Shown piece by piece: positions 1,957-26,118 of a DNA stretch of 37,644 nt. Position 1 is the stretch's first letter; each line of letters starts with the position of its first letter. The translations under genes and the position numbers were made by a program. The notes below the pieces were generated by a model. It was not told the origin of the DNA. It worked only from the letters and a program-made list of their open reading frames with translations, and did not search any database. The stretch is from Oscillospiraceae bacterium (GTDB taxonomy: Bacteria > Bacillota > Clostridia > Oscillospirales > Oscillospiraceae). The stretch lies in contig JAILFJ010000142.1 in the NCBI GenBank assembly GCA_024697625.1, positions 1 through 37,644 of the forward strand, written 5' to 3'.

Positions 1957-2112
1957 TGGTGGCTCCGGTCGCCGGGCAGGTACGGCTTCTACGTCGCGCT
2001 CGTCTTCGGCGACGGCAGCGTCTACGACGTCGGCAGCGTCAACTACTTCGGCAACTGCGTGAACTTCAGATACGGTGTTCGCCCCGCTTTGAAAATCAAT
2101 CTGAAATCTGAT
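1957..2112 (+). other. DGR-like variable region in DUF6273 copy 1
   Basis: The 21 nt at 1957-1977, encoding WWLRSPG, are identical to 9884-9904 and 24181-24201. The block that follows differs in length and content between copies, and the shared flank GAAAATCAATCTGAAATC resumes at 2091. Of the 35 codons from 1978 to 2082, 29 end in C, many being TAC, GTC, GGC, AGC, GAC and AAC. That is what adenine-directed mutagenesis of AAC codons in a template repeat leaves behind. No template repeat was found in the window. Confidence 0.55.
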
Positions 2113-2229
2113 ATCTTCTAATCTTTTATCTCTTCTCAATCTTCAGAATCTATAATCATCAAAGTCCCTGAAATTTATGTCAGGGATGGGATAGCAACTG
2201 GCGTGTTGCCATTTATAAAAGAAATTGTG

Positions 2230-2436
2230 ATCCCGGAGAGTGTTACGAGTATCGGAAAAAGCGCATTTTCAGGGTGCAGCAGCCTCACGAGCGTGACGAT
2301 CCCGACGGGCGTCACAAGTGTCGGCGAGAGCGCGTTCTCAGGCTGTAGCGGGCTCATGAGTATCACGATCCCGGAGAGTGTTACGAGTATCGGAATAAGC
2401 GCATTTTCAGGATGCGGCAGCCTCACGAGCGTGACG
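2230..2436 (+). repeat. Three LRR_5 repeats, 69-bp units, in copy 1
   Basis: Three consecutive 23-residue units start with IPESVTSIG or a variant and carry SAFSGC followed by SLTSVT or similar, the BspA-type leucine-rich repeat. Two degenerate units follow to about 2570. Confidence 0.8.
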
Positions 2437-4480
2437 ATCCCGGAGGGAATCGTAGAGCTGAGTGGAAGCTGCTTTGCGTTTGCAAAAAATCTGACAGGAA
2501 TTCAGTTCCCGGCATCCCTGAAAAAAATCGGGAAAGAGGCCTTTGCAGGATGCTCCATCTTGGAGAACGTCACAGGAGTGAACGAGGCAATCACTTACGG
2601 GAAAGACGTGTTCCGAGGATGCGGGAAGCTGAACTACACGCCGGAGATGTTCCGCAACACGGGAAAGCTCTGTGACTCCTTTGCCGAGCATCTGGACAGC
2701 TGCGGAGCGGAAGAACTCGCCTGGGTCCTGATGTATCAGAAAGGCGCCGTATGGAACCGCGCCCTGTCCGGACAGATCACCAGGGAAAATGCGCCTGCTG
2801 TTGCAGATGCACTGCTTGGACTGACAGAAAAAGCGAAAATCAAAGCACAGGAAACCGTCTGTCGCTTTATCCTTGCGACTGCAACAGTAATCGGGAAAGA
2901 GCGGACAGAGAAGCTCCTGGCTCTTCTGAAGAAGGGTAAGACCATGAAGTTCCCCGAGGAACTGCTGGTATGCAGGGAAGATCTGTTCTCAGATGAAATC
3001 CGCCCTGCGATGGCAAAACAAGCCTTTGAGATCTCTGATGCGATCTTGAAGCAAAAAGTCGATGCCATGTCCGGACTGCCATCCTTCTCACATGTCCTGG
3101 CGGCAGCCGGAGACTATGCCAGAATGTATTATAGAGGATATGTTGACCCCAAGGACTATAAAAAAGGCTTCCTGAATTCCTATACCAAAACGGAAGACGC
3201 GGAGCGGTTGGCAGATGCGCTGGATCATGCATCCCTGATGGCCGTGCTGCAGGATTGGAGGACGGTTGAGCCGCAGTGGCTTGCCCCCTATGCGGCATTT
3301 GCAAACGACGAAGAACTCACAGCACTCATCGGCGAGATGAAAGCCTGGGAAAAAGACAAGAAGCTGAAGGAGCAGATCATCCGGGTCCGTGGAGCGATCC
3401 TGCTGAACGACACCGTGACAGCTATGCGCTATGCCGACTCTCTCGGCCTGCTGGAGCATTATGCGGAAAGGAAGACCTGAGCCTGACCCTGTCGGACGAG
3501 AGCGGAAAAATCCTGAAGTCCGTTCCCAAGAAGGGGGCGGAGCCGGAGGAATATGACGCGGTGAGCAAAGCGTTCTCCGCCATGAAGAAAGATATCCGGA
3601 CAACGGCAAAGACGAGGAATGATAAGATCTTTGCGGACTTCCTGAGCGGACGCAGCCGCCCGGGAAAGGACTGGAAGAAGGCCTATCTGAAGAACCCGGT
3701 GCTGCGGACTCTGGCAAAGCTGGTCGTCTGGGAGCAAAACGGGCGTACCTTTATCCTGGACGCCTCCGGCGCGGCACGGGATGTAGACGGGAATGCATAC
3801 ACCGTGACGGATGAGCCGGTCAGAGTGGCACACCCGATGGAGATGACACCGGAGACCACGGAAGCCTGGCAGCAGTACTTCACATCCCACGGCCTGAAAC
3901 AGCCGTTTGAGCAGGTCTGGGAGCCGGTAGCGGATGCCGCGCTGGTGAAGCCGGGACGCTATGACGGCTGTACAATCCCGCTGTACATGCTGATGAACAA
4001 GGAGAAGCACGGCATCACCATGGAGGGACAGAGCCAAATCACACTGGCCGGCTGCTCCGCCGGACTGAGACTGGTGGAAGGACATCATGACTGGGTCAAC
4101 AATGACTTTGAGGTGACCAACTTCCGTTTCAGCGAGTTCACCCGCCAGGTGAACCACATTGTCGTCCATCTGGACAAGGGGACCGTTGCCGGGCGGATCA
4201 GAAAGGACGACATCTCTGCTGCCCGGTGGTTCGACCGCTTCACACTGGCGCAGATCACGGAGTTCATCCGGCTGGCCCAGGAGAACAGCGCGGTGAACGT
4301 GCTGGCCCAGCTGCTGGAGTACAAGAACGAGCACTTCGCGGACTTCGACCCGATGGACGAGTTCACGCTGGATCTGATCTGACGAAGCAGAAGCCGGGCA
4401 GAGCTTCCGTGAAGAGCCGAAGAGCGTCGGAGCTGGCGTTCCAATGAGAAAGAGAGATCAGCATCGTCACCTGGGCTGAA

Positions 4481-4556
4481 GAAGCAGCATGACCTGAAGG
4501 TGAACGAAGGCCTGGCCGGCCAGTGCCTCCAGAATCGGAAGATCGCCAGGGACTCT
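4481..4556 (+). pseudogene. 76-nt relic of a MoxR ATPase gene
   Basis: Positions 4481-4556 align without gaps to 8346-8421 inside the intact MoxR gene, with 61 of 76 bases identical, and it encodes a version of its QHNLKVTESL to NRKIAKDF segment. No neighbouring MoxR sequence is recognisable, so it is a deletion scar rather than a gene. The rest of the 204-nt gap between 4382 and the TIR gene shows nothing I recognise, apart from the GAAGGA ribosome binding site at 4575-4580. Confidence 0.75.
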
Positions 4557-4586
4557 GGCGAGTAACAGAAGAACGAAGGATATGCA

Positions 4587-7499
4587 ATGAACGTGAACGA
4601 ATCATCTTCCGCTGCAGCCTCCGACTCGAAAGCATATACTTACTATGCTTTTGTCAGCTATAAATCTGAAGATGCAAAATGGGCGCGCTGGCTCAAGCGT
4701 CAGCTTGAGCTTTATCGCCTGCCTGCAAAAACCCATAGACAGCATCGGGATCTGCCGCGGCGATGCAGTCCTGTTTTCCTGGATAAGACCAATCTTACGC
4801 CGGGCATATTGGATGATGAGCTGCGAAGCGAAGTACAGTCTTCCAGGTATATCATCATCGTGTGTTCCCGCCATGCGCATGACAGATCTTTCTATCTGGA
4901 CAACGAGCTGCGCTATTTTCTTGAGGGGAGCGGGGATCCGACACGCATCATCCCGTTTATTGTGGATGATTCCGATGATCCGGTCAATGAGTGTTTCCCC
5001 GGGGAACTGGCAGAACTGTGCAGAGAGAAAAACATCGTCGGTGTCAGCGTAAAAGACGAAGGCAAACGGAAGGCGCTTCTCAAGGTGGTGGCCGCGATGC
5101 ACGGCCTGAAGCTGGAGGAACTGGAGAGCGAAGATGAACGCCGCAGAAGAAGACAGGGTCTCTGCGCATCACTTCTGGCTGTGCTGCTGCTCACGGCCTC
5201 TCTCCTGTGCTGGAATTATTACCGTGTCAGGAGAGAGTATTATCTCGACTATACAGAGGTTTACGGAGTCCCTGTGGGAATCCATAAACTGCAGCGGAAG
5301 GAGACCGGGACAACAGCGCATTACGTATTCGTCTCAAGCCGGGGCAGACTGCGTGAGCTGTGCTATGAGAATTCAGCGGGACAGCCCATCATGGAACAGC
5401 AGATCAACCGGATTGACCGTTTTTCGAAAGCGACGTTCAGCTACGTGGACCGTGCACTTGCAGCCGTAAGCCATTATGATGAAAAAGGAAAGCTGATTCT
5501 CGAGCTCCGTTACGCAAATCAGAATACGATCGACCTGATGCGGAACGTTGTGTCCGGAGGATCGGACGTCGTCAGTGCCGCACCGCTCCGCTCACAGTCC
5601 ACAGAGACGCTGCTTGCCACGGAAACACAGAGTCGGAAGAGCAATGTGATCCGTTATCTTGTTACCTACAGCAGTGAGGGATATGTGCAGGAAGTCCATT
5701 ATGCGGCGGATACATACAACCGGGTCGGTCAGGATGCGGACGGCATCAGCGGCATACGGTATAAACGGGATGAAAAGGGCCGCATCAGAGAACAGTATTA
5801 TCTTACCTTCATCGGCTCTGCGGATCTGAACGCCGTCAGAGCAGACCGCTTTGCGGTGATCGGAAAACGGGACGGCGAAGCCTGCAGAGTGTTCTGCTAC
5901 AATGCAGACGACGATCTGACCGAGATCGCCTTTCTTGGGAGAGACGGGGAACCTGTCCTGAACACGATGCTCGGCTGTGTCATGCATCTGGACCATGAGG
6001 GGCATAACGAGGTCAGGGGAAGCTTCCACACGGCAGACGGAAGCATGTATCGGAATGCCAGGGGATACGCCGGCTGGGAAGCCGTCCGTGACCGACACGG
6101 CAACGAGATTAGACATACCTTCCTCGACACGGAGCATAAGCCGGTTTCAATCAGCGAAGGATACGCGGGTTACGAGTGTATCTATGATGAGCACAGCCGT
6201 CTGATCAGGGTGAGCACATTTGGCCCGAATGGTGAGCCGGTCCCTTATCGGAAGGGGATTAACGGCTGGGAATCCGAATATGATGAGCGCGGCAATGAGA
6301 CCAGACGCTGTTTTCTCGACGTTGACGGCAGCCCGATCCTGCATCAGGACGGAGCTGCCGGCTGGGAAGCTGTCTATGACGGTCACGATAATCTGATCCG
6401 ATACAGTTACTTCGATACCGATGGCAGCCCGACCCTGTACCGGGATGGATATACGGGCTGGGAGTCCGTCTTCGATGAGAATGACAATGAGATCAGGCTG
6501 ACTTACTTCGGAACGGACGGTAAACCGATCCTGACCCGGAACGGTCATGCCGGCTGGGAATCCGACTTCGATGAGCGCGGCAACGAAGTGAGACGCTGCT
6601 TTCTCGACGTTGACGGCAGCCCGATTCTGAACGGAGAGGGATATGCCGGCTGGGAGTCCGTCTGTGACGGGCGCGGAAATGAGGTCAGGCATGTTTTCCT
6701 GGATACGGAAGGGATGCCCGTACGGACTCCTGAAGGCTATGCAGGCTATGAAGCCACGTACGACGAACGCGGCAATCAGATTCGACTTGTGTTTTTCGAT
6801 ACCGACGGCAGACCGACTCTGCATCAGGATGGAGCTGCCGGCTGGGAAGCAGCCTGGGATGTACGCGGAAATGAAATCAGACACAGCTTCTTTGACGCTG
6901 ACGGGAAACCGGCTCTGATTGCAGACGGCTACGCAGGCTATGAGTGTATTTATGACGAACGCGGCAACGAGATCCGGGGAGGTTACTTCGGCACGGACGG
7001 CAGACCGATCCTGAATAAAAGCGGCTATGCCGGCTGGGAATCCGTATATGACAGCAGAGGAAGGGAAATCCGGTACAGTTACTTCGGCACGGACGGCGAG
7101 CCGATCCTTCAGAGAGACGGCTATGCCGGGTGCGAATCCGCCTATGACGATCGGGGAAATGCGATCAGGATCAGCTTTTTTGGCGTCGACGGGAAACCGG
7201 TTCTTTACCGGGATGGCTACGCAGCTGTAGAGTACAGCTACGATGAGCGCGGCAATGAAATCAGGCTCAGCTTTTTCGATACCGAGGGAAACCCGGTCCT
7301 TGCTTCTGACGGCTATGCATGCAGGGAAGCTGTCTATGATGAACGCGGCAATACCGTCAGGGTCAGCTACTTCGGTACCGGAGGAGAGTCGGTCATGACA
7401 GCGTACGGATATGCAGCTGCCGAACTGCAATACGACGGCTCGGATGAATGTATCGGTGTCATCTGCTTTGACGAACGCGGGCAGGTGATTCCGTCCTGA
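4587..7499 (+). CDS. Membrane-anchored TIR protein with 15 tandem RHS/YD-like repeats
   Basis: A 970-residue protein. Residues about 18-150 form a bacterial TIR domain: YYAFVSYKSEDAKW opens it, VFLDKTNLTPG is the BB-loop-like segment, and E107 in YLDNELRYF sits where TIR NAD hydrolases have the catalytic glutamate. A run of arginines (185-189) precedes one membrane helix at about 191-209, so the TIR domain is cytoplasmic and the remainder is probably outside. After a divergent stretch, residues 494-970 are 15 tandem 32-residue units of the form YAGWESVYDERGNEI...F.TDGKPIL, reminiscent of RHS/YD repeats but without an RHS core or toxin tip. Inference: an external repeat stalk senses a ligand and the internal TIR consumes NAD or makes a nucleotide signal. 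The ATG at 4587 is fixed by GAAGGA 6 nt upstream. The MoxR gene follows after 121 nt. Confidence 0.8.
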   Translation: MNVNESSSAAASDSKAYTYYAFVSYKSEDAKWARWLKRQLELYRLPAKTHRQHRDLPRRCSPVFLDKTNLTPGILDDELRSEVQSSRYIIIVCSRHAHDRSFYLDNELRYFLEGSGDPTRIIPFIVDDSDDPVNECFPGELAELCREKNIVGVSVKDEGKRKALLKVVAAMHGLKLEELESEDERRRRRQGLCASLLAVLLLTASLLCWNYYRVRREYYLDYTEVYGVPVGIHKLQRKETGTTAHYVFVSSRGRLRELCYENSAGQPIMEQQINRIDRFSKATFSYVDRALAAVSHYDEKGKLILELRYANQNTIDLMRNVVSGGSDVVSAAPLRSQSTETLLATETQSRKSNVIRYLVTYSSEGYVQEVHYAADTYNRVGQDADGISGIRYKRDEKGRIREQYYLTFIGSADLNAVRADRFAVIGKRDGEACRVFCYNADDDLTEIAFLGRDGEPVLNTMLGCVMHLDHEGHNEVRGSFHTADGSMYRNARGYAGWEAVRDRHGNEIRHTFLDTEHKPVSISEGYAGYECIYDEHSRLIRVSTFGPNGEPVPYRKGINGWESEYDERGNETRRCFLDVDGSPILHQDGAAGWEAVYDGHDNLIRYSYFDTDGSPTLYRDGYTGWESVFDENDNEIRLTYFGTDGKPILTRNGHAGWESDFDERGNEVRRCFLDVDGSPILNGEGYAGWESVCDGRGNEVRHVFLDTEGMPVRTPEGYAGYEATYDERGNQIRLVFFDTDGRPTLHQDGAAGWEAAWDVRGNEIRHSFFDADGKPALIADGYAGYECIYDERGNEIRGGYFGTDGRPILNKSGYAGWESVYDSRGREIRYSYFGTDGEPILQRDGYAGCESAYDDRGNAIRISFFGVDGKPVLYRDGYAAVEYSYDERGNEIRLSFFDTEGNPVLASDGYACREAVYDERGNTVRVSYFGTGGESVMTAYGYAAAELQYDGSDECIGVICFDERGQVIPS
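6066..7496 (+). repeat. 15 tandem 96-bp (32-residue) repeats
   Basis: Units begin YAGWE or AAGWE, carry YDERGNEIR in the middle and end near GKPIL.RDG. Units 3 and 6 (about 6258 and 6546, 288 nt apart) share RRCFLDVDGSPIL, and the HQDGAAGWEA junction recurs after units 3 and 8. This higher-order similarity points to duplication of blocks of several units. The last unit is incomplete and divergent. Confidence 0.85.
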
Positions 7500-7620
7500 T
7501 ACTGTTCTCCCATGAAAAACAGACATTGTCTGCTTTCTAATGAATTCCAGTATGAGTCTGCCTGGGTGATCGGGCTGGCCCTGCAGAAGATAGAAATACA
7601 GGAAGTGAGAAGGAACAACT

Positions 7621-9132
7621 ATGAACATCAAAGAAGCCAAAGAACAGATCAAGAACGCTATGACGGCGTATTTTACCAAGGACAGATTCGGAAACTATGT
7701 GATTCCGGTGGAGAAACAGCGGCCGGTCTTCCTGATGGGCCCTCCGGGCATCGGCAAGACCGCCATCATGGAGCAGATCGCCCAGGAGCTGGGCGTCGGG
7801 CTGGTGAGCTATTCGATGACCCACCATACCCGGCAGTCCGCGCTCGGCCTCCCGTTTATTGAGACGAAGAACTACGGCGGGAAGGAGTACAGCGTCTCGG
7901 AGTATACCATGTCCGAGATCATTGCCTCGGTCTATGACATGATGGAGGACACCGGTCTGAAGGAGGGCATCCTCTTTCTGGACGAGATCAACTGTGTCAG
8001 CGAGACCCTGGCGCCGTCCATGCTGCAGTTCCTGCAGTACAAGGTCTTCGGCCGCCATCGGGTGCCGGACGGCTGGATCGTCGTGACTGCAGGCAACCCG
8101 CCGGAGTACAACAATTCGGTCCGTGACTTCGACATTGTCACATGGGACCGCCTGAAGCGCATCGACGTGGATCCGGATTACGACGTCTGGAAGGAGTATG
8201 CCTATAAGTACGGTGTGCACGCGGCCGTCATGACCTATCTGGATATCAAGAAGGCGGACTTCTACAAGATCGAGACCACCGTGGACGGAAAGAGCTTCGT
8301 CACGGCCCGCGGCTGGTCGGATCTGAGCGACATGATCCGGCTGTACGAGCAGCACAACCTGAAGGTGACCGAGAGCCTGGTCGGCCAGTATCTGCAGAAC
8401 CGGAAGATTGCCAAGGACTTTGCCGTGTACTATGACCTCTTCAACAAGTACAAGGCGGACTACCAGGTGGATAAGATCCTTGCGGGCGAGCCGGTGGAAG
8501 TCATCAAGGGCAGGGCAAAAGCCGCCCGGTTTGACGAGCGACTGAGTCTGCTGGGCCTGCTGCTGGATGCGGTGACCGGAGAGCTGCATGAAGTCTGCAA
8601 CGAGGAAAATGCGCAGAAGAGTCTGCTGGAAGTATTGAAGGCAGTGCGGCTGGAGCTTGTCAGACCGGGAAGCAGGCCGGACGAGGTGCTGGACCGCCAG
8701 ATCACCAAACGGCAGAAGGACCTGGAGACCGGAAAGCGCGCCGGTTCGCTCTCGGACGATGACCGCTTCGCCATCGACAGCACGATCTCGGCACTGGATG
8801 AGGAGCGGGCCATCCTGATGGAGAAACAGCCCGAAAACGGCCAGGCAGCCTTCGCCCTGCTGAAGGGAGACTTCGACAGCCGGACGAAGCAGCTGAAGAA
8901 GCATGCGGACGAGGCAGGGAAAAAGCTCTCCAACGTGTTCCGATTCTGCGAGGACGTCTTCCAGGACGGGCAGGAGATGGTGATCCTGGTGACGGAGCTG
9001 ACCATCAGCTATTACGGCGCGCACTTTATCAGCCGCTACGGCTGCAAGGAATACTTCGACCATAACAGGGAGCTGCTGTTCTATGAGCGTCAGAAGGAGA
9101 TCATCTCGGAACTGGAGAGCCTGGAGCTGTAA
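7621..9132 (+). CDS. MoxR-type AAA+ ATPase
   Basis: A 503-residue cytoplasmic AAA+ ATPase of the MoxR/AAA_5 group. Walker A is GPPGIGKT at residues 40-47, Walker B is LFLDEIN with D121 and E122, and N159 in TAGNPPEYN is the sensor-1 position. The C-terminal half (about 260-503) is helical and charged. MoxR ATPases usually act as chaperone-like remodelers together with a vWA-domain protein, and associations with DUF4132 (MolR-type) proteins are known. Here intact and broken DUF4132 genes lie on both sides, but no vWA gene is present in the window. The start is supported by GAAGGAA at 7609-7615. A 76-nt relic of a second copy lies upstream of the TIR gene, so this ATPase was once duplicated. 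Confidence 0.85.
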   Translation: MNIKEAKEQIKNAMTAYFTKDRFGNYVIPVEKQRPVFLMGPPGIGKTAIMEQIAQELGVGLVSYSMTHHTRQSALGLPFIETKNYGGKEYSVSEYTMSEIIASVYDMMEDTGLKEGILFLDEINCVSETLAPSMLQFLQYKVFGRHRVPDGWIVVTAGNPPEYNNSVRDFDIVTWDRLKRIDVDPDYDVWKEYAYKYGVHAAVMTYLDIKKADFYKIETTVDGKSFVTARGWSDLSDMIRLYEQHNLKVTESLVGQYLQNRKIAKDFAVYYDLFNKYKADYQVDKILAGEPVEVIKGRAKAARFDERLSLLGLLLDAVTGELHEVCNEENAQKSLLEVLKAVRLELVRPGSRPDEVLDRQITKRQKDLETGKRAGSLSDDDRFAIDSTISALDEERAILMEKQPENGQAAFALLKGDFDSRTKQLKKHADEAGKKLSNVFRFCEDVFQDGQEMVILVTELTISYYGAHFISRYGCKEYFDHNRELLFYERQKEIISELESLEL

Positions 9133-9140
9133 CAGAAAAG

Positions 9141-9469: not shown

Positions 9470-12400
9470 ATGACAGAGACAGCAAAAACGGTGACGTACA
9501 GGGAAGTGGAATTCAAGCCGGGAGCACTTCTGTGGCTTGGAACGGAGAGAATGCCCTGGCAGGTACTGGAGGTGGACCGGGAGGCGGAAACGGCGCTACT
9601 GATTGCAGAGAAACCGGTCTGTGAGAAAGCCTACAATGAACAATGGGCATACACCACATGGGAGCAGTGCAGCCTGCGGGCATGGCTGAACGGGGAGTAT
9701 TATGAGAAGCCCTTCTCTGAAGAAGAAAAGGCGGCAATCCTGGAGTGTGAGCTCAGGAATCCGGACAACCCGAAGTATGGGACCAAAGGCGGAAACGACA
9801 CAAAAGACAGAGTCTTTCTTCTCAGCATCGAGGAAGCGGAGAAATACTTCCAGGATTACAAAGACCGTGGCACGGGCTCCTGGTGGTGGCTCCGGTCGCC
9901 GGGCGACTACGGTAAGGGCGCCGCATACGTCTACGGCGGCGGCAGCATCAACTACGACGGCGCTAACGTGTACAACAGTCGCGGCGTGCGCCCTGCTTTG
10001 AAAATCAATCTGAAATCTGATCTCTTCCAATCTTTCATCTTATCCAAATCTCCTGAATCAATAATCATCAAAGTTCCTGAAGTGTATATCCGCGATAAGA
10101 AAGTGATTAGTATTCTGCCAGATATCAAGGAGGTAACGATCCCGGAGAGTGTGACGAGCATCGGGACGAGCGCATTCTCAGGATGCAGCGGGCTTACGGG
10201 CATCACAATCCCGGAGAGCGTGACGAGCATCGGAGAGAGCGCATTCGAGGACTGCAGCGGGCTTACGAGCATCACGATTCCGGAGAGCGTGACGAGCATC
10301 GGGACGAGTGCATTCTCAGGATGCCGCGGGCTGACGGGCATCACCATCCCGGAGAGCGTGACGGGCATCGGAGAGAGCGCATTCGAGGACTGCAGCGGGC
10401 TTACGAGCATCACGATCCCGGAGAGAGTGACGAGCATCGGAACGAGCGCATTCTCATGGTGCCGCGGGCTTACGAGCATCACGATTCCGGAGAGTGTCAC
10501 GAGCATCGGGACGAGCGCATTCAAGGCCTGCAGCGGGCTTACGAGCATCACGATTCCAGAGGGTGTGAAGAGCATCGGAGAGAGTGCGTTCTCAGGCTGT
10601 AGCGGGCTCGTGAGTATCACGATCCCGGAGAGTGTGACGAGCATTGGAGTGAGCGCATTCAGGAACTGCAGCGGGCTTACAAGTGTGACGGCACATAAGG
10701 ATCCGACAGGGAAGGGTGCAATAGAAACCATCGGGAATAATGTTTTTTCGGGATGCACATCCCTCAGAAAGGTCAGCCTGCCGGTAAAGATCCAGACACT
10801 TGCAGGGAAAAGAATCTTTGACAGCTGCACGGAGCTTGTCGGAATTCTGATCTCCTTCGATGACGACAGCGGAAAACGGAAGCCGATTGCCTACTCCGAA
10901 AAGACAAACAGCTGCAGTCTCGACGAATGTGACAGACCGGGCTACTGGAACTGGTACGATCTGGAGATCCTCAACAACGGACCGCAGTTCAAGTATAAGC
11001 TCCCCATGCGGCTGCTGGGCATGATCGGCCGCCTGATGGACCCGGTGGAACTGAGTGAAGAAAACAGGGGCATGATGACGGAGTTCCTTACGAAGAACGC
11101 GAAGAAACTGTTTGCCCTTGCCGAGGAACTGGACGAGCCGGATGTGCTGTCTGCGATGTTTGAAAACGGCATCATCAACAGCGGGAATCAGAAAGCACTT
11201 CTGAAGCTGATCAGCGCCTCAGAGAATCCCGCAATTGCGGCCCTGGCATCAGCCGAAGTGAAGACGGCAGAGCCGAAAGAGGCCGAGGAAAAGAAGACAA
11301 CGCCGGAAGACAGCCGATGGACAAAACTCTTTCAGGAAGCGGGCGGAGAGAAAGAATTCCGGAATATGAAGCTGATCGGAATGAAGATTCCGACCGTGAA
11401 GCTGAAGAACGGGGAAGATGCACCGGAAGCGCTGCTGAAGTATATCCTGGTGAGCTATGGAAAACAGCTGAAAGAGGAAATGCAGATTGACCGGGAAGCC
11501 GATGCCGCGGCCGAAGAGCTGTCCCGTGATTCACTGTGCGAAGCAATCGATGCGCTGAGCAATCATCTGGACGGACCGAGTTACCCATCCATGCTCCCGG
11601 TCATCTGTCGTTACGGGAATGCTCTGCAGATCAAGGAACTGCTGAAAGTGCAGAGAGAATGGGCAAATTGGGACAAATACGGCATCAAGGGGAGAAAAGC
11701 GCAGGAGCATCTGGGCAGGGCACTCGCACTGAGCGATACCCATGAAGCGGTCATCTGGCTGAATAAAAGAGACCAGCTGGGAGAATTCGCCAGGATACGC
11801 GGGATCTCCGAGGCAGAAGTCTACGAAGAGTATCTCTTCGACTTTGGCTTCGACGAGCATGGACGGAAAGAGTACGACCTGGGAACCACGACGGTCAGGG
11901 TCAGCCTCAACTCTGAACTGAAGCTTTCTCTCTATGACACCGCAAAGGGGAAGAATGTCCGAGGTCTGCCGCAGAAAGGCGTGGACCGGGATCTCAGACA
12001 GAAGGCTGCGGACGATCTCAGCGACCTGAGGAGCAATCTCAAAAAAGCAGTCGGCCTGAAAACCGACCAGCTGTTCGGCGATTATCTGCAGGCACGGAGC
12101 GTATCTGCGGAACAGTGGGCCAGGAGCTATCTGAAGAATCCCGTTCTTCGTGCGATCGCAGGTCTTCTGGTCTGGTCGCAGGGGAAAAGCAGCTTTATCC
12201 TGACCGAGTCGGGGCCGGTTCAGTCTGACGGAACGCCGTATACGCTGGGGGCAGACCCGATTCTGCCTGCACATCCATTGGACCTCACAGAAGCAGAAAC
12301 GGAACGCTGGCAGCACTACTTCAACGAGAAGGGGCTGAAGCAGCCTTTTGAGCAGGTGTGGGAACCGGCCTACAATGCCGCGGAAATCCGCACAGACCGA

Positions 12401-12868
12401 TATGCCGGGATCCCGGTACGGTTCAAGTATCTGAAGAACCGGACAAAACACGGAATCGACGCGGGAATCTATTACACCTATGAGGATATCACAGATTATA
12501 TCCGACTGAAGGACTGCGAGATCGAATATGAGATCGATGACTATGAAAAAGATTCTGATTACAGCGACAACAGCGCACTTCTGGAAACAAAAGCGATTCT
12601 GGGCGCATTTACTTTTGAGAAGTTCAACCGGCAGGTCAACCACATTGTCTATCTGCTGGATAAGCTGACGGTCTATGAGCGAGTCGGAAAGGATGATCTG
12701 TCCGTTCAGATCTTCCTTCCGAAGTTCACCCTGCCGCAGATCATGGACTTCATTCAGATTGCGTCTGAAAACAAGGCGACAAATGTACTGCCCATGCTGA
12801 TGGAGTATAAGAACGACCACTTCGCGGACTTCGACCCGATGGACGAATTCACGCTGGATCTGATCTGA
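9470..12868 (+). CDS. DUF6273-LRR_5-DUF4132 multidomain protein
   Basis: An intact 1132-residue protein. Residues about 5-185 are DUF6273 (a C-type-lectin-like fold is suspected), containing WWLRSPG at 139-145, a variable block and VRPALKINLKSD. Eight exact-length LRR_5 repeats span about 224-407. A helical region follows, then the DUF4132 signature at about 765-910 (YLFDFGFDEHGRKEYDLG, then YLKNPVLRAIAGLLVW) and a C-terminal region ending DEFTLDLI. DUF4132 occurs in MolR-type proteins that accompany MoxR ATPases; its biochemical role is unsettled. There is no signal peptide, so despite LRR repeats typical of surface proteins the protein looks intracellular. AGAGGAGG at 9453-9460 sets the start. 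The next gene begins 30 nt later and probably shares the transcript. I infer a recognition module (DUF6273/LRR) joined to a MoxR-dependent switch. Confidence 0.85.
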   Translation: MTETAKTVTYREVEFKPGALLWLGTERMPWQVLEVDREAETALLIAEKPVCEKAYNEQWAYTTWEQCSLRAWLNGEYYEKPFSEEEKAAILECELRNPDNPKYGTKGGNDTKDRVFLLSIEEAEKYFQDYKDRGTGSWWWLRSPGDYGKGAAYVYGGGSINYDGANVYNSRGVRPALKINLKSDLFQSFILSKSPESIIIKVPEVYIRDKKVISILPDIKEVTIPESVTSIGTSAFSGCSGLTGITIPESVTSIGESAFEDCSGLTSITIPESVTSIGTSAFSGCRGLTGITIPESVTGIGESAFEDCSGLTSITIPERVTSIGTSAFSWCRGLTSITIPESVTSIGTSAFKACSGLTSITIPEGVKSIGESAFSGCSGLVSITIPESVTSIGVSAFRNCSGLTSVTAHKDPTGKGAIETIGNNVFSGCTSLRKVSLPVKIQTLAGKRIFDSCTELVGILISFDDDSGKRKPIAYSEKTNSCSLDECDRPGYWNWYDLEILNNGPQFKYKLPMRLLGMIGRLMDPVELSEENRGMMTEFLTKNAKKLFALAEELDEPDVLSAMFENGIINSGNQKALLKLISASENPAIAALASAEVKTAEPKEAEEKKTTPEDSRWTKLFQEAGGEKEFRNMKLIGMKIPTVKLKNGEDAPEALLKYILVSYGKQLKEEMQIDREADAAAEELSRDSLCEAIDALSNHLDGPSYPSMLPVICRYGNALQIKELLKVQREWANWDKYGIKGRKAQEHLGRALALSDTHEAVIWLNKRDQLGEFARIRGISEAEVYEEYLFDFGFDEHGRKEYDLGTTTVRVSLNSELKLSLYDTAKGKNVRGLPQKGVDRDLRQKAADDLSDLRSNLKKAVGLKTDQLFGDYLQARSVSAEQWARSYLKNPVLRAIAGLLVWSQGKSSFILTESGPVQSDGTPYTLGADPILPAHPLDLTEAETERWQHYFNEKGLKQPFEQVWEPAYNAAEIRTDRYAGIPVRFKYLKNRTKHGIDAGIYYTYEDITDYIRLKDCEIEYEIDDYEKDSDYSDNSALLETKAILGAFTFEKFNRQVNHIVYLLDKLTVYERVGKDDLSVQIFLPKFTLPQIMDFIQIASENKATNVLPMLMEYKNDHFADFDPMDEFTLDLI
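9884..10021 (+). other. DGR-like variable region in DUF6273 copy 2
   Basis: The flank at 9884-9904 is identical to the other two copies and GAAAATCAATCTGAAATC recurs on the 3' side at 10000. Between them, 22 of the 29 codons from 9905 to 9991 end in C (TAC, GTC, GGC, AGC, AAC). The encoded residues are mostly Tyr, Gly, Asn, Ser and Asp and differ from copies 1 and 3, while the framework Gly and Val positions are kept. Confidence 0.55.
10139..10690 (+). repeat. Eight LRR_5 repeats, exact 69-bp units
   Basis: Eight units of 23 residues (IPESVTSIGTSAFSGCSGLT and variants) fill 552 nt with no indels. Units alternate between SAFSGC/RGLTGIT and SAFEDC/SGLTSIT, giving a 138-bp super-period at the start of the array that suggests expansion by duplication of unit pairs. 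Confidence 0.9.
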
Positions 12869-12898
12869 GAGGGAAGAAGACAATTGGAGGAAAGAAAG

Positions 12899-14632: not shown

Positions 14633-14646
14633 TGTGAGGAAGAAAT

Positions 14647-17544
14647 ATGGATCTGAGTAATATATCCATTGATCAGCTCGGGCTCTCAAGACGTTCGAAA
14701 AACGCGCTCCACAGGGGGAGCATCAATAATGCGGCTCAGCTGATAGAGCTGACGTGGGAACAGATTTTCGGGCTGCGCAACGTCGGACAGAAATCTGTTG
14801 AAGAAATCATGCTGAAAATCGGTGAGCTGAAAGAAAACCCCGCTGCCTTCATGGAGAACGCTGAAACCGGCGAAAGGACGGACAGCTCAGAAGAAAACGT
14901 CCTCAGACGGCTCAGAGAGCATCCGGTTTCCATCGGGGAACTCAGCATGCTGCCAACGCAGGTATACAACCTGCTGTTCTTCAGCGGATACCGCTCGCTC
15001 GAGCAGATTGTCTTTCTCGGGATAAACGAACTGATGCAGATTCCGGGTATGACAAGAGGCGCAGCCGAGGAGATTGCGGAACAGTGCCGCAGATATCTGG
15101 AGGAACACACAGACGAGTTTCAGAACGAGGATGAACGGACGGAAATGCCGGATCTGTCCATCTTCGAGGCGATTCACCTGCCGCAGTATCATGACCTGAT
15201 TCTCAGCAACGCCAGGGAGATCGACGTGGAACTCACCAGGATACCGATGTCCGCACGCGCGCACAACGGGCTGAATGCGAGCGGATACCGGATGATGAGC
15301 GATATCATATTCCTGAATGAGCAGGATCTTCAGAAGACCAGAGCGCTGGGAACGAAAACCATCCGGATCATCACAGAGGCAGTCAGAAAGTATCTGACAG
15401 AAAACGAAAGCAGGCTCCTGCCGGGCGGCGCTGATGCGGCTGCGGAAGCGCAGAGAATCGATGATGAACGACTGAGAACGATGATTCCTGGCCTCTGGCA
15501 GGAACACGGATTTGTCGGCTACAGCCTGAAGGAGATGAGAGATGCGCTTCAGCTTCCGGAGCAGGTCGAAGAGGAGCGGCTGAAAAAGGTGATCGGAGCG
15601 CTGCTGGCGGCCGGTGAGCTGGAATATGTGGACTTCCGGTGCTACCGCGTATACGAAAAGTTCACGGATGAGCTGGACCGGGCAGAGGGAATCAACGAGC
15701 GCAGCAGAGAAATCCTGCGGAAACGTCTGGAAGGCAGGACGCTGGATGAGATCGGAAAGGAGTATGACCTGACCCGAGAACGCGTTCGCCAGATCATTGC
15801 GAAAACCGCCAGGAAAGTTCGCCGGTGGCACGCTGATGCGACCGGAAAGGAATACTTTGACGAGGATTATTACCGCTACTTCTGTGAGACCTACTCGTTT
15901 GAGCGAAAGGATGCGACCGAGTGGCTCGGAATCCCGGAATCGGTTTTCCGCTATCTCGATATGATGGATGCCGGAAAAGGCAGGAAGGATCTCCGGGAAG
16001 CGCTGGAAGATGTCCGGGGGCTGGATGCGGGGCTCCGCCTGAAGATCAAGAATTACCTGAATCGAAACAGGGTTTTCATCGACGGCGTATGGGTTGAGAA
16101 AACGCGGTCGGAACTCGAAAGAATCGCAGTAAAAAAGATCTGCAGAGATGCCATGCCCTTCAGGGATTTTGTCAGTCAGTATAACGGCTTTCTGAAAGAG
16201 CGGGACATTGAGGACGAAGATCTTCTCATTACAGAGGCAGTCATCCGGACGAGACTGGGCAGAATCCGGGAAGAACGCTGTGTGCTCTGGAGCCTGGGAG
16301 GAAAGCTGCGCTACTATGACATTGACGGCCGCGATTACCAGGAACTGTACGACACCCTGGACCTGAATTCCTTCGAGAATATCGAAATCTCGACGAAAAA
16401 GCTGTTCCGGGAGTATCCGGAACTCATGAGAAAATATGACATCAGGGATCACTATGAGCTGCATAACCTGCTCCGCAAGACAGTGAAAGACGGCGATTTT
16501 CACGAATTCCTGTGCTGCGATATGCCCAATATCCGATTCGGAAGCTTCAATATGGATTCTGCCATGTGGGAGCTGATTGTGGAAAACGCGCCGATCAGAG
16601 TAACGGAGCTGGCTGAGATCGTCAGCGACATGTATGGCTTTGAGCCCGGTATTACCACAGGAACCTATCTTAAGCCTTTTTCGGCATATCTCCACCAGGG
16701 CGTATATACCGTGGATCAGAAGCCCATGGCGACGGAGCATCGGATGCAGCTGCAGGCTGCGCTGACCGAGGACTTTTACTATCTCGATGAAATCCGACGG
16801 ATCTATGCGGGGCTTTACCCGGAGGCTGACCTGAACGAGATCAATACCTATAACCTCAAGCAGATGGGCTTTACCGTCCTGTCCCGATATGCTTTTCAGC
16901 ATTACCCGTCCCTGGACGCATACTACAGAGATATTCTGACGCGCTCTGATTTTCTGGATATCACGCCATATAAGAAACGCTATACCGGTGCGGTTTTTTA
17001 CCAGACGTTTCAGAGCCTTCGGGAAAACCTTGATCTCATTGAGTTTGAGCCGAACCAGTTCATCCACATCCGTCAGCTGCAGAAATCCGGAATTACAAAG
17101 GAAAATCTACAGGAATTCTGTGATGATGTGTGGAACTGCGCGGAGAACGGAACCTTCTTCAGCATCAGGTCGCTGAGAAAAGCCGGGTTTGACTCCGAAC
17201 TGTTCGACCTGGGGTTTGAAGATCTGTTCTATGCCGCTGTACTGCAGTCGGACGAAAGATTTTCATCCGGGCAGGTCTATGGCACGACGGTGTTTCTGAA
17301 AGACCGGAAAAATGTTACGATCCGCGGCCTCATCGAAAGCCTGGTGAAGGAGCAGAAAAGCATGGACATGCTGGATCTGCTGACGGTACTGCAGGAAGAA
17401 TTCGGCTGCCATCCGGAGAATCGATCTGACATACTGGGGAAAATCACGGAGTCAGATCTGTACTATGACGGGACATTGGATCGCCTGTATACCAGCAGTG
17501 AGGCGTTCTACAGAGAACTGGACGAAGCGGAGGGGAGCAGATGA
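14647..17544 (+). CDS. Triple alpha-CTD-like plus sigma-region-4-like DNA-binding protein
   Basis: A 965-residue protein with three N-terminal helix-hairpin-helix modules resembling the RNA polymerase alpha C-terminal domain: residues about 1-62 (GLSRRSKNAL, LRNVGQKSVEEI), 95-152 (PTQVYNLLFF, IPGMTRGAAEEI) and 195-252 (SARAHNGLNA, RALGTKTIRIITE). A winged-helix-like stretch (about 278-340) leads into a sigma-70 region-4-type helix-turn-helix at about 350-394 (TLDEIGKEYDLTRERVRQI). The 570-residue C-terminal part has no domain I can name; repeated helical segments look like further winged helices. It may target promoters or bind RNA polymerase to regulate the cassette or redirect transcription, but a nucleic-acid-sensing role is equally possible. 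Its stop overlaps the next start by 4 nt (ATGA), so translation of the two is coupled. Confidence 0.75.
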   Translation: MDLSNISIDQLGLSRRSKNALHRGSINNAAQLIELTWEQIFGLRNVGQKSVEEIMLKIGELKENPAAFMENAETGERTDSSEENVLRRLREHPVSIGELSMLPTQVYNLLFFSGYRSLEQIVFLGINELMQIPGMTRGAAEEIAEQCRRYLEEHTDEFQNEDERTEMPDLSIFEAIHLPQYHDLILSNAREIDVELTRIPMSARAHNGLNASGYRMMSDIIFLNEQDLQKTRALGTKTIRIITEAVRKYLTENESRLLPGGADAAAEAQRIDDERLRTMIPGLWQEHGFVGYSLKEMRDALQLPEQVEEERLKKVIGALLAAGELEYVDFRCYRVYEKFTDELDRAEGINERSREILRKRLEGRTLDEIGKEYDLTRERVRQIIAKTARKVRRWHADATGKEYFDEDYYRYFCETYSFERKDATEWLGIPESVFRYLDMMDAGKGRKDLREALEDVRGLDAGLRLKIKNYLNRNRVFIDGVWVEKTRSELERIAVKKICRDAMPFRDFVSQYNGFLKERDIEDEDLLITEAVIRTRLGRIREERCVLWSLGGKLRYYDIDGRDYQELYDTLDLNSFENIEISTKKLFREYPELMRKYDIRDHYELHNLLRKTVKDGDFHEFLCCDMPNIRFGSFNMDSAMWELIVENAPIRVTELAEIVSDMYGFEPGITTGTYLKPFSAYLHQGVYTVDQKPMATEHRMQLQAALTEDFYYLDEIRRIYAGLYPEADLNEINTYNLKQMGFTVLSRYAFQHYPSLDAYYRDILTRSDFLDITPYKKRYTGAVFYQTFQSLRENLDLIEFEPNQFIHIRQLQKSGITKENLQEFCDDVWNCAENGTFFSIRSLRKAGFDSELFDLGFEDLFYAAVLQSDERFSSGQVYGTTVFLKDRKNVTIRGLIESLVKEQKSMDMLDLLTVLQEEFGCHPENRSDILGKITESDLYYDGTLDRLYTSSEAFYRELDEAEGSR

Positions 17545-18533
17545 TAACACAGCAGCAGGTTGAGAAGCTGAACTCTGAGATTCAGAAGCTTCACCATCGG
17601 CAGGAGCTTGCGGGACAGGTCGGACCGGACTGGTTTGAGCCGGGAATGATGGAATACCTCGACCAGTCTGACGGATTCTACGATCCGGCCTCAGGCAGCC
17701 TGATCCTCCGCTTTGAAGCCAGAGGAACACGATATGACGGAAGAACCGAAGTAATTGAAAAGGTCCGTCTCGGAGATCCGATCCGGATTCTCCGGGATGC
17801 GGAAAACCCCTACAACCCGAATAACTTCACCATGGAAACGGAAAAAGGGAACAACGTGGGGCATATGCCGGCAGAACTCTGCAACGCGCTGGCGCCGTTC
17901 CATGATGAAGGGAGGCTGATCATCGACAGTGCCGAGGTCAGCTATGTCGAACCGATTTCCAGGCGCAGCAGACACGCAAAGCAGGCGGTCCTGTTTGTAA
18001 GGCTCTGCGGGCGAATCCTCAGTGCTGCTGATGCTCAGAGCATGCCGGACGCTGAGACAGCCGGATTCCGGGAGCTTCCTTCAGCGGAGCAGCAGAAACC
18101 TAAGCCGATTGCCTATACAGGGGATGAAAAACATCTGTTTGTATCGTATTCACATCATGAAGCGGATCTTGTGCATCCTCTGATTCAGGAGATGACAGAA
18201 AGGGGCTTCCGCATCTGGTATGATGAAGGAATTGAACCGGGAGCCGGGTGGGATGACAATATTGCGGATCAGATCGCCCGCTGTGATCTGGTGATTGCCA
18301 TGATATCTCCTGAATACCTGGAGTCGGAAAACTGCAGAGATGAGCTGAACTATGCGCGGGATGAAGGAAAGAGGATCATCCTGGTGTATATCGAAAAAAC
18401 AGAGCTTCCCGCAGGCATGAAACTGAGATATAACAGGCTCTATGCGCTGCATCGGTACGAGCTGCGGCAGGATGATTTCTACCGAAAGCTGCTCTCCGTC
18501 AGCGGGATCGATGCCTTCCGGCGCCCGACGTGA
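17541..18533 (+). CDS. HIRAN-TIR domain protein
   Basis: A 330-residue protein joining a HIRAN domain to a TIR domain. HIRAN covers about 53-135 (RFEARGTRYDG, then LGDPIRILRDAENPYNPN and GHMP); HIRAN modules recognise DNA ends or damaged DNA. TIR covers about 197-320 (HLFVSYSHHEADL at the start, IWYDEGIEPGAGWDDNI as the BB-loop region, SPEYLESENCRDELNYA around the predicted catalytic glutamate E268). Bacterial TIR domains of this kind often cleave NAD. No membrane segment is seen. It is translationally coupled to the preceding gene by an ATGA overlap and closes the cassette. A plausible role is abortive NAD depletion triggered by an aberrant DNA structure; this is inference from domain content. 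Confidence 0.8.
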   Translation: MITQQQVEKLNSEIQKLHHRQELAGQVGPDWFEPGMMEYLDQSDGFYDPASGSLILRFEARGTRYDGRTEVIEKVRLGDPIRILRDAENPYNPNNFTMETEKGNNVGHMPAELCNALAPFHDEGRLIIDSAEVSYVEPISRRSRHAKQAVLFVRLCGRILSAADAQSMPDAETAGFRELPSAEQQKPKPIAYTGDEKHLFVSYSHHEADLVHPLIQEMTERGFRIWYDEGIEPGAGWDDNIADQIARCDLVIAMISPEYLESENCRDELNYARDEGKRIILVYIEKTELPAGMKLRYNRLYALHRYELRQDDFYRKLLSVSGIDAFRRPT

Positions 18534-18540
18534 TACGGGG

Positions 18541-18647: not shown

Positions 18648-18671
18648 CAACAGAGAAGGGAGCACACTGAT

Positions 18672-23407: not shown

Positions 23408-23515
23408 GCTGTTGCTGATAAACAAGACAGTATCAGATGAATGCAAATACACGTGCACAACGCAACAAAAACTTCCGAAATAATCGAGTTTTGGTTATCG
23501 ATACCCTAAACTTGA

Positions 23516-23697
23516 TTTTTTGAGGTGGTCACGGGAATCCGCAGATGCGGAAAATCCAGTCTGTTAAAACTGATGCAGAGGCATCTCGTTGAAACAGGAA
23601 TTCAGCAGAATCAGATCATCGCCAGGAACACATCATTGAGAATATCGTTTACTTTGAACTACTGAGAAGTGGCTATGATGTTACGGTTGGAATAGAA
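23516..23697 (+). pseudogene. Relic of a second AAA_14/DUF4143 ATPase with internal deletion
   Basis: In one frame 23522-23620 reads EVVTGIRRCGKSSLLKLM and onward, the N-terminal P-loop of an AAA_14 ATPase of a different subtype from the one at 280. From 23629, in another frame, it reads HIIENIVYFELLRSGYDV, the conserved C-terminal DUF4143 segment. The roughly 300 codons between are gone, with the junction around 23621-23629. A TGA lies in frame just upstream of the P-loop (23513-23515). The remnant runs into the DUF6273 gene leader. Apart from it, the 335-nt gap 23408-23742 holds the AGGAGG of the next gene (23729-23734) and nothing else I recognise. Confidence 0.75.
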
Positions 23698-23742
23698 TTG
23701 TACAATATTCTGGACAACAACATAACGCAGGAGGAGAGCAGC

Positions 23743-26118
23743 ATGACGACAGCATCTGATACTATGACGACCTATAGGGAAATGGAATTCAAGCCGGGTG
23801 CATTGCTGTGGTTCGGAACAGAGAGAACACCGTGGCGGGTGCTGGAGGTCGACCGGGAGCATGAGACGGCTCTTCTGATTGCGGAGGAACCGGTCTGCAA
23901 CAGAGCCTACCATGAAAAAAGGGAGAATACTACCTGGGAGCAATGCTCTCTGCGAGCCTGGCTGAACGGAGAATACTGTGAGAAGATCTTTTCCGCTGAA
24001 GAGAAGGCTGCGGTTGTTGAGACGGAACTTGAGAATCCGAATAATCCAGAGTACGGTACGGAGGGCGGAAATCTGACGAAGGATAAGATCTTCCTGCTCA
24101 ACATCGACGAAGCAAAAAAATATTTCAAGGATAACAAAGATCGTGCGCCCAGCCCCAGGTGGCCCAGCACATCCAGATGGTGGTGGCTCCGGTCGCCGGG
24201 CTGCAGCAGTGACTACGCCGTGAACGTCTACGACGGTGGCTACATCTACTGCAGCGGCTACGGCGTGGACGGCAGGCTCGCGGTTCGGCCAGCTTTCAAA
24301 ATCAATCTGAAATCTGATATCATACAATCTTTCATCTTATTTGAATCTCCTGAAACCATGATTATCAGAGTTCCTGAATTACTGATCCTGGAGGGCAGGG
24401 CAGTCAGTTCATTCCCGGATGTGGAGACAGTTAGAATTCCGAACAGCGTGACGAGCATCGGCAGGAGCGCATTCTACGGATGCCGCAGTCTGACAAGCGT
24501 GACAATCCCGGAGAGCGTGAAGAGCATCGGCAACAGCGCATTCTACGGATGCAGCAGTCTGACAAGCGTGACAATCCCGGAGAGTGTGACGGACATCGAA
24601 AACAGGGCATTCTCAGACTGTAGCAGCCTGACGAGCATGACGTTATCAGAATCAACGCTGAAAAAAATAGGAACAGAAATGATTCGGAAAGAGCTGCTAA
24701 AGAACGAAATCATATTATCGTATTTACGAGGGGAAAGCATATGCCAGGCGTTGGAGAAAGAGATTGTAAAATTCCTTTGCTTGAAAGAGCAGAAAAAGGA
24801 ATGGTTTCGAGAGCTATATAGAAAAAATGAGATCGGAGCACTAGAAAGACTTTTGTCTCTGCAGAAAAAGCTCGAATTGGAAGAACTGGAAACATACATC
24901 GAGCAGGCGGAAAAAGATTCAAATACAGAGATGAAAAGCATGCTTCTCCAATTAATGGCCGGTCGATACTCCGATGCACAAGTAGAATTACTTCATAATG
25001 AAAAAGACGAGAAAGAGCTTGGTATACGGGAAAAGTCCCTTGCTGATTGGAGAAAAACTTTTACAGTCTCAATCGCAGGCGGTGTTGCGAGGATCGGCGG
25101 CTATAGGGGGCCCGCTACAGAATCAGTCGTTGTCCCTGCTAGAATTGCTGAGTATCCGGTAAAAGAACTTGGAGACAAGGCTTTTTCCGCCAGAAGCGGA
25201 ATAAAAACTGTCATTATTGAAGAAGGCGTGGAGAGAATTGGCAAAAGGACATTCTGGGGGATGCATGACCTGAAGGATTTATACTTGCCTGATAGTATTT
25301 GCAACATTGAAGACTATGCCATTCAAGGGAAAAAACGAACGATCCATGCATCAAAGGGAAGCGTTGGAGAGGCATTTGCAATAAAAAATGGAATAAGATT
25401 TAAGGAAGAAAAGAAAAGCACCGAGAGAGCCGAACAGAACGTTTCTCCAGAACCTTTAGTGCCTTGTGACTCGAAGAAATCTTGGAGTTACGCAGTTCTC
25501 CCTGATGGAAGTTTATGCCTCACATCTTACAAAGGAAATGATACTGATGTAACTATCCCTGAAAAAATTGGAAAGAGGCCTGTAACGGTGTTAGGAGACT
25601 ATGTAATGGCGGCAGAAAAAGCAAGTCAGCAAAAGACACTAAGCCAGAGAAGAGAAAAGGTCAAAAGCGTAGTAATACCGGAAGGAGTCCGGAAAATCGG
25701 AGCCTTTGCGTTTGCCTGTTGTAAAGAGTTAGTAAGCATTTCGCTCCCATCGACAATAGAAAGCATAGGCCCAGGAGCTTTTTATCGGTGCGAAAGCCTT
25801 CTTAGCATCCGTCTCCCGAAAGGCTTGACAGAACTGAAAAGCGGATTTAGCGAGGCATATTATTCTCCGTCTATAATGGGGACATTTCAATGGTGCCGGA
25901 ATCTTGTGAAAGTGGAAGGCTTATCTGATATAGCAAGTATTGGCGACAATACATTCCATTTCTGTGAAAGAATAAAAGAGATTAAGCTTCCAACTTGTTT
26001 GAAAGCAATAGGGAATAATGCTTTCTTGGGATGCCCGGATATTACTATTCGCGCTGCAGCAGGCTCTTTTGCCGAGCAGTACGCCAAAAAAAATAATATC
26101 CCCTTTGTGGTGGACTGA
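23743..26118 (+). CDS. DUF6273-LRR_5 protein with a distinct C-terminal half
   Basis: A 791-residue protein. ATG 23743 is chosen because AGGAGG lies 8 nt upstream; a TTG 45 nt earlier in frame belongs to the ATPase relic. Residues about 8-190 are DUF6273 with WWLRSPG at 147-153, a variable block and VRPAFKINLKSD. Three regular LRR_5 repeats follow at about 232-300. The rest is unlike the two paralogues: a Glu/Lys-rich helical segment (about 310-425), then two more scattered LRR-like regions ending in a SFAEQYAKKNNIPF cap, a common end of BspA-type LRR arrays. There is no DUF4132 domain, signal peptide or anchor. Sequence from about 24640 is AT-richer (25 G/C in row 24901-24960 versus 37 in 23821-23880), suggesting a fusion of a local 5' module to a foreign 3' part. 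Function unknown; recognition is a reasonable guess. Confidence 0.8.
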   Translation: MTTASDTMTTYREMEFKPGALLWFGTERTPWRVLEVDREHETALLIAEEPVCNRAYHEKRENTTWEQCSLRAWLNGEYCEKIFSAEEKAAVVETELENPNNPEYGTEGGNLTKDKIFLLNIDEAKKYFKDNKDRAPSPRWPSTSRWWWLRSPGCSSDYAVNVYDGGYIYCSGYGVDGRLAVRPAFKINLKSDIIQSFILFESPETMIIRVPELLILEGRAVSSFPDVETVRIPNSVTSIGRSAFYGCRSLTSVTIPESVKSIGNSAFYGCSSLTSVTIPESVTDIENRAFSDCSSLTSMTLSESTLKKIGTEMIRKELLKNEIILSYLRGESICQALEKEIVKFLCLKEQKKEWFRELYRKNEIGALERLLSLQKKLELEELETYIEQAEKDSNTEMKSMLLQLMAGRYSDAQVELLHNEKDEKELGIREKSLADWRKTFTVSIAGGVARIGGYRGPATESVVVPARIAEYPVKELGDKAFSARSGIKTVIIEEGVERIGKRTFWGMHDLKDLYLPDSICNIEDYAIQGKKRTIHASKGSVGEAFAIKNGIRFKEEKKSTERAEQNVSPEPLVPCDSKKSWSYAVLPDGSLCLTSYKGNDTDVTIPEKIGKRPVTVLGDYVMAAEKASQQKTLSQRREKVKSVVIPEGVRKIGAFAFACCKELVSISLPSTIESIGPGAFYRCESLLSIRLPKGLTELKSGFSEAYYSPSIMGTFQWCRNLVKVEGLSDIASIGDNTFHFCERIKEIKLPTCLKAIGNNAFLGCPDITIRAAAGSFAEQYAKKNNIPFVVD
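24181..24318 (+). other. DGR-like variable region in DUF6273 copy 3
   Basis: The leading 21 nt match the other two copies exactly, even though the sequence just upstream has diverged and gained an insertion (PSPRWPSTSR). Of the 29 codons from 24202 to 24288, 21 end in C. The 3' flank AAAATCAATCTGAAATC returns at 24298. Islands of identity around a divergent core are what recurrent homing or gene conversion would leave. Confidence 0.5.
24436..24642 (+). repeat. Three LRR_5 repeats, 69-bp units, in copy 3
   Basis: Three exact 23-residue units (IPNSVTSIGRSAFYGC.SLTSVT and variants). The nucleotide unit is close to those of the other two genes, so the arrays share a recent origin. Confidence 0.85.

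Follow-up and report, generated by a model that had tools for sequence, protein, structure and literature searches.

Three DUF6273 genes carry variable blocks between common flanks

The DNA analyzed here, which we refer to as the window, is a 37,644-nt stretch that makes up contig 87 (JAILFJ010000142.1) of an Oscillospiraceae assembly (GCA_024697625.1; 3.55 Mb, 181 contigs, 89% complete), and contains three genes, termed w1, w2 and w3, whose DUF6273 domains each end in a variable block. A first-pass annotation of the window had proposed that these blocks are the variable regions (VRs) of a diversity-generating retroelement (DGR), an element in which a reverse transcriptase (RT) copies a template repeat (TR) into its targets. 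Pfam places DUF6273 in all three genes, as that annotation had stated (5.3e-30 for w1, 3.6e-29 for w2 and 8.5e-29 for w3), with the block at the end of the domain in every case. The genes and the parts of their candidate VRs are as follows (LRR, leucine-rich repeat):

1543..2121 (+): w1 DUF6273 reading frame, with a stop directly after the domain (PF19789)
1957..1977 (+): w1 VR 5' flank, 21 nt, identical in w1, w2 and w3
1978..2076 (+): w1 variable core, 33 codons, 28 C-ending; contains an 18-nt near-duplication
2077..2112 (+): w1 VR 3' flank, VRPA codons and the conserved AAAATCAATCTGAAATC tract
9470..12868 (+): w2, DUF6273 - LRR_5 - DUF4132 protein, 1132 aa (Pfam)
9884..9904 (+): w2 VR 5' flank
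9905..9985 (+): w2 variable core, 27 codons, 21 C-ending; residues 146-172 of 1132
9986..10021 (+): w2 VR 3' flank
23698..26118 (+): w3, DUF6273 - LRR_5 protein, without a DUF4132 match (Pfam, scan from 23746)
24181..24201 (+): w3 VR 5' flank
24202..24282 (+): w3 variable core, 27 codons, 21 C-ending
24283..24318 (+): w3 VR 3' flank

Both flanks recur as first described: the 21-nt 5' flank TGGTGGCTCCGGTCGCCGGGC is found three times on the + strand of the window, at 1957, 9884 and 24181, and three copies of the 17-nt 3' flank AAAATCAATCTGAAATC lie on the same strand, at 2092, 10001 and 24298. Codons ending in C account for 30/38 of those between the flanks in w1 and for 22/32 in both w2 and w3, and for the counts listed above in the cores that precede the VRPA codons, compared to whole-frame values of 39%, 32% and 24% for w1, w2 and w3. 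This excess was already present in the first-pass counts (29/35, 22/29 and 21/29), which differ slightly through the choice of block ends. The best 27-codon C-ending stretch of each gene coincides with its block (25, 21 and 22 of 27); the corresponding stretches in five other window genes scanned reach 14-18 of 27. The w1 core, which is 18 nt longer than those of w2 and w3, holds two adjoining 18-nt units (GGC AGC GTC NAC NAC NTC) with three base differences, and template slippage plus separate A changes could be their source.

The blocks bear an imprint of adenine-directed mutagenesis

Genome-wide, 17 VRs were found in DUF6273 domains on seven contigs: one of class A (contig 24), nine of class B (contigs 11, 88 and 166), and seven of class C (contigs 75, 56 and the window). 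Fifteen of these, including the window's three, are dispersed and lack an exact template. Pairwise differences among the seven class C copies at codon positions 1, 2 and 3 are 0.21, 0.17 and 0.43 upstream of the block and 0.46, 0.41 and 0.20 within it, and C occupies 78% of third codon positions in the block compared to 27% upstream. No A occurs among the 34 invariant positions of the class C block (13 G, 17 C and 4 T), and A is present at 42/53 variable positions; upstream of the VR, 59/178 positions that are invariant in the five copies of equal length are A. Class B displays the same pattern with lower contrast (differences of 0.43, 0.44 and 0.34 in the block; no A among 18 invariant positions), with 30/69 variable positions free of A. 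The class C 3' flank is conserved as DNA, its position-3 difference being 0.22 (12 codons) versus 0.43 upstream and 0.62 for the same stretch in seven non-VR DUF6273 domains; no common hairpin was seen in this flank, the place where an initiation-of-mutagenic-homing site and its cis hairpin would be expected. An adenine-directed imprint in the window blocks, as the first-pass proposal would predict, is supported by variation at codon positions 1 and 2, by invariant positions without A, and by the excess of changes at the adenines of a surrogate TR that is described below.

Two explanations that dispense with an RT bear on this pattern. If the blocks reflected ordinary protein divergence together with a local codon bias, some excess of C-ending codons might arise, as C is a possible third base for each of Gly, Asp, Tyr, Asn and Ser, and non-VR DUF6273 domains also show a weak A excess relative to templates. 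However, differences become fewer at position 3 and more frequent at positions 1 and 2 in the same place, the opposite of the upstream part, and both this genome and genus g8 contain real AAC-codon templates with the same framework. We regard ordinary divergence as extremely unlikely. Alternatively, exchange among paralogues by gene conversion or cassette shuffling could have made the differences between the common flanks. The identical flanks of dispersed copies fit such exchange, as do the VRs of C11 (5407) and C88 (805), which are nearly identical, though gene duplication also explains the latter. Nevertheless, exchange reshuffles existing blocks and by itself yields neither NNC codons that vary at positions 1 and 2 nor A-free invariant positions, making it very improbable as the source.

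Two DGR cassettes in the same genome form true TR/VR pairs

Two genes in the genome match RVT_1, one on contig 24 (C24) and one on contig 38 (C38), and both encode the GNQTSQ and YMDD motifs, which we take to be those of DGR-type RTs. The best PDB chain for the C24 RT is 8ub7_A (9.3e-43; next chain, 7.5e-18), presumably the RT of the Bordetella phage DGR, while NCBIfam returned sub-cut-off matches alone (group II intron, Drt3a). Each RT is preceded by an AAC-rich TR, which is in turn preceded by a small gene; that of the C24 cassette matches bAvd (PF22296, 40.6 bits versus a cut-off of 40), and that of the C38 cassette is labeled bAvd-like on the basis of its 53% identity to the former. A cognate DUF6273 gene lies directly upstream of the cassette on contig 24. 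The C38 cassette lies near a contig end and its matching VR is on contig 166 (53874); because the compared ends of contigs 166 and 38 have no common word of 15 or more bases, their adjacency is a guess.

In the comparison of the C24 TR with its own VR (core), 20/31 A but only 1/53 non-A positions are changed (p=1.4e-10), and the C38 TR and the contig 166 VR (53874) give 19/33 and 1/54 (p=1.9e-9). A in the VR is found opposite a non-A of the template in 0/11 and 0/14 cases, respectively. Both pairs have the textbook form expected of a DGR, so that the two elements have DUF6273 VRs as targets. The remaining class B copies are weaker against the C38 template, as exemplified by a second VR on contig 166 (50690; 15/33 A and 18/54 non-A, p=0.18).

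The first-pass annotation had looked to the genome for a DGR-type RT and a template. Two RTs, two AAC-rich TRs and bAvd-like genes are indeed present, but neither TR belongs to the window blocks. That the C24 and C38 cassettes nonetheless also write the window VRs is suggested by the same domain and similar framework, by an A excess of the three window VRs relative to the C24 TR (59/102 A and 48/162 non-A differ, p=5e-6), and by the 3' end GGCGTGCGCCCTGCTT, which w2 has in common with the C24 template and its VR. On the other hand, the true pairs have non-A differences at 1/53 and 1/54 positions, compared to 48/162 here and to 77/162 relative to the C38 TR (with 65/99 A), and every class C copy needs gaps to align with the C24 template; we therefore consider it unlikely that either cassette wrote the window VRs.

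Relatives of the RT were found at four loci from five stretches in a viral contig collection, and at 1e-40 or better in 23/400 family genomes, where at least 9 of 35 codons in a block are AAC or AAT at 25/28 RT loci examined. The same threshold is reached by four RT matches in a single genome, G170, which is a possible multi-DGR relative.

A third template is the probable source of the window VRs

The templates nearest to class C are the TRs of three genomes of genus g8 (G457, G274 and G500). The TR on contig 27 of G457 (L131), which is accompanied by an RT with 60% identity over 218 residues, aligns without gaps to 5/7 class C copies. Relative to this surrogate, changes in the three window VRs fall at 62/111 A and 28/150 non-A positions, with a p-value of 3.9e-10 that is nominal because positions and copies are not independent, and A in the VRs lies opposite a non-A in only 2/51 cases. 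For comparison, eight non-VR DUF6273 domains of the same genome as the window gave 169/288 A, 187/387 non-A, and 55/174 A opposite non-A. The comparison that gave these counts took in 6/7 class C copies (C75a was mis-anchored and omitted) and 8/9 controls (C14 was omitted); C75a gave 21/37 and 9/50 in a separate TR/VR comparison. At the G500 locus, a VR, a bAvd-like gene, a template and an RT lie together, with the same CCG GGC start as in the window class.

Taken together, we favor, with a probability of about 0.87, the reading that the three window blocks are VRs written by a DGR. Their source would be a third, class C template that the assembly lacks or that was since lost or altered. Several observations weigh against this reading, the first being that the template was not recovered. 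Pattern searches of the genome itself, in an assembly that is 89% complete, gave 22 matches and no third template, and a second pattern returned the C24 template alone. Across 102 genomes of the genus, a pattern search yielded no class C template, its matches being those of this genome and one unread two-mismatch match in G040 that was taken as chance; matches in 4 of the 19 genomes of the G457 genus included no exact class C template, as did those in 4 of 400 family genomes (the G428 match being unread); and the exact pattern had no matches in viral contigs. The genus and family patterns start in the 5' flank and would miss a template beginning later. Secondly, five foreign TRs were tried, of which the G457 contig 27 TR performed best. 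The other four are weaker or, for some VRs, give no signal (for w2, p=0.12 with L107, 0.03 with L108 and 0.09 with L117), the pooled window VRs differ from the G500 TR at 57/102 A and 57/159 non-A (p=0.001), and the non-VR controls have a weak A excess of their own (p=0.005). Thirdly, 11/53 variable columns of class C lack A, and the five copies of equal length show one invariant A among 33; therefore, other changes besides A-directed ones occurred. Finally, the w1 gene (1543-4382) looks broken, the window VRs lie near the N-terminus, which is unusual for DGR VRs, and the VR comparisons draw on one genome per species.

A sub-case of DGR origin is that the DGR was lost, or its template has since changed, leaving the window VRs frozen in what are now ordinary genes with a fossil imprint. 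The unrecovered class C template, the A-free variable columns and the apparent breakage of w1 are consistent with this, and a VR copy that persists as a remnant, with no RT close by, has been described in a cyanobacterium (PMC7517822). Conversely, the third cassette may simply be missing from the assembly, because this is incomplete, divided into 181 contigs and has one cassette at a contig end, and two DGRs with fresh-looking TR/VR pairs reside in the same genome. We give frozen targets slightly less than an even chance, and whether the window VRs are still changing or frozen is about even.

Extrapolating from studied DGRs, we envision that an RT and its bAvd-like partner would copy an AAC-rich template RNA while misreading adenines, and that the resulting cDNA would replace the VR at the end of the putatively lectin-like DUF6273 domain, such that residues change and framework bases stay. 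The window VRs would have been written in this manner, by retrohoming from the class C template. The DUF6273 head would then bind changing ligands, and binding may exert its effect via LRR and DUF4132, possibly also via neighboring MoxR-like, TIR and HEPN proteins.

The window DUF6273 domains lie with LRR and, in two genes, DUF4132 modules beside TIR, MoxR-like and HEPN genes

The other features of the window are listed here:

2203..3480 (+): LRR_5 reading frame 3' of w1 (Pfam)
3492..4382 (+): DUF4132 piece in the open reading frame 3276-4382, in a frame different from that of the LRR (PF13569, 1.4e-30)
4587..7499 (+): TIR-domain protein, 970 aa (PF13676, 8.9e-11)
7621..9132 (+): MoxR-like AAA ATPase (AAA_5, 1.6e-8; bpMoxR, 26.7 bits, slightly below the cut-off of 27)
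12884..14632 (+): Swt1-like HEPN protein (PF18731, 1.4e-24, scan from 12911)
14647-17544: 965-aa protein, flanked by the HEPN and HIRAN-TIR genes; contains stretches resembling the RNA polymerase alpha-CTD and one resembling sigma-70 region 4
17541..18533 (+): HIRAN-TIR protein (Pfam)

The w1 region (1543-4382) resembles a broken copy of the w2 architecture, with an early stop and LRR and DUF4132 pieces in different frames. Of the modules proposed to be fused to the variable domains, LRR_5 is confirmed for all three genes and DUF4132 for the first two but not for w3, and Pfam matches support the MoxR-like AAA and TIR genes named in the same proposal. No vWA or VMAP match was obtained by Pfam among 11 window proteins scanned. 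With PADLOC, w2 and the HEPN protein were unmatched, and the TIR, MoxR and other proteins gave weak partial matches. In sum, the window VRs are probably DGR targets that are orphaned in the present assembly, carried by a DUF6273-LRR(-DUF4132) chassis with TIR, MoxR-like and HEPN genes as neighbors. By analogy to DGR-diversified sensors near MoxR and TIR genes, as outlined in passages of two reports (PMC7159879; PMC10907252), an immune or conflict-system role of these genes is plausible.

Related VRs reside on several protein architectures

Among class C proteins, Pfam scans identified DUF6273, LRR_5 and DUF4132 in w2, C75 (17389-21867) and C56. All three proteins of class B that were scanned combine a Ser/Thr kinase with a C-terminal DUF6273 domain (L101, L103 and L104; contigs 88, 11 and 166), and an FHA protein adjoins one of them on contig 88. 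The class A protein contains LRR_5, CarboxypepD_reg and a C-terminal DUF6273 domain, and its start appears signal-peptide-like by eye. Contig 88 also encodes two proteins (L102:5892-12888) with two or three tandem DUF6273 domains that lack a VR imprint, the first of which is a kinase; these tandem copies served as non-VR controls.

The genome has 28 DUF6273 matches, two of which are the template repeats themselves, compared to at most five in any of the 101 other members of the genus that were searched. This expansion is not unique, because 36 matches are found in the genome of L094 (G502, RUG13159) and 11 in G457. L094 itself is a kinase-DUF6273-Sel1-like protein in a metagenome-assembled genome labeled Chloroflexi. 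Relatives of the w2 domain were found at two loci from 44 candidate stretches in a genome contig collection, in one phage record (27% identity), and in 0/7 stretches from viral contigs. A model of the DUF6273 domain suggests a resemblance to C-type lectins. The window class is unusual in position, because DGR VRs are, according to passages of two reports, usually located at C-termini (PMC8144416), and VRs in a 5' position are described as rare among phages (PMC10743442).

We tentatively propose, as a possibility short of an even chance, that at least 17 lectin-like sensors, all written by DGRs, form a repertoire in this genome, with several templates and three chassis (Ser/Thr kinases; LRR-DUF4132 proteins beside TIR, MoxR-like and HEPN genes; and a protein with an export-like start), in which the LRR-DUF4132 class is written in the front part of a long gene rather than at its 3' end. 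If true, such a DGR-written sensor set would amount to an anticipatory receptor repertoire in a single-celled bacterium. This genome carries a single diversified module on several signaling chassis and probably connects retroelement diversification with LRR-DUF4132 proteins that have TIR, MoxR and HEPN neighbors. Little is known of DGR function for cells, as opposed to phages, and the clean template/VR pairs in this genome suit testing.

Comparison with known systems

A literature search at the level of titles and passages gave no link of DUF6273 or DGRs to LRR-DUF4132 proteins, and a search for DUF4132 together with MoxR found no paper. Gut phage DGRs with DUF6273 targets (phages nd4 and nd12, PMC10743442; Faecalibacterium prophages, PMC11792537) are similar to those described here in that the VR ends the DUF6273 domain, which modeling suggests to be lectin-like, and in target 1 of nd4 and nd12 the domain is N-terminal, as in the window class (PMC10743442). 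The nd12 RT, 44.6% identical to the C24 RT, is one of the two phage RTs nearest to it. The targets of the phage DGRs are receptor-binding proteins, whereas those described here are cellular LRR-DUF4132 proteins and kinases that are numerous, dispersed, and situated among chromosomal-looking neighbors.

DGR-diversified MoxR ternary conflict systems, as summarized in parts of two reports (PMC7159879; PMC10907252), place a diversified lectin-like domain near MoxR-like ATPase and TIR genes, as the window does with its putatively lectin-like DUF6273 domains; they differ from the window, where the target is not a vWA fusion and the scanned proteins lack vWA and VMAP matches. Cyanobacterial DGRs with remote variable proteins (PMC7517822) also resemble the present system, having dispersed lectin-type VRs, many on Ser/Thr kinases and some with TIR, as well as RT-less remnants. 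However, their matches lie near gene 3' ends and belong to another lectin-like family, whereas in the window class the VR lies near the N-terminus of proteins in which it is fused to LRR and DUF4132 modules, raising the question of homing mechanics when a VR lies away from the 3' end of its gene.

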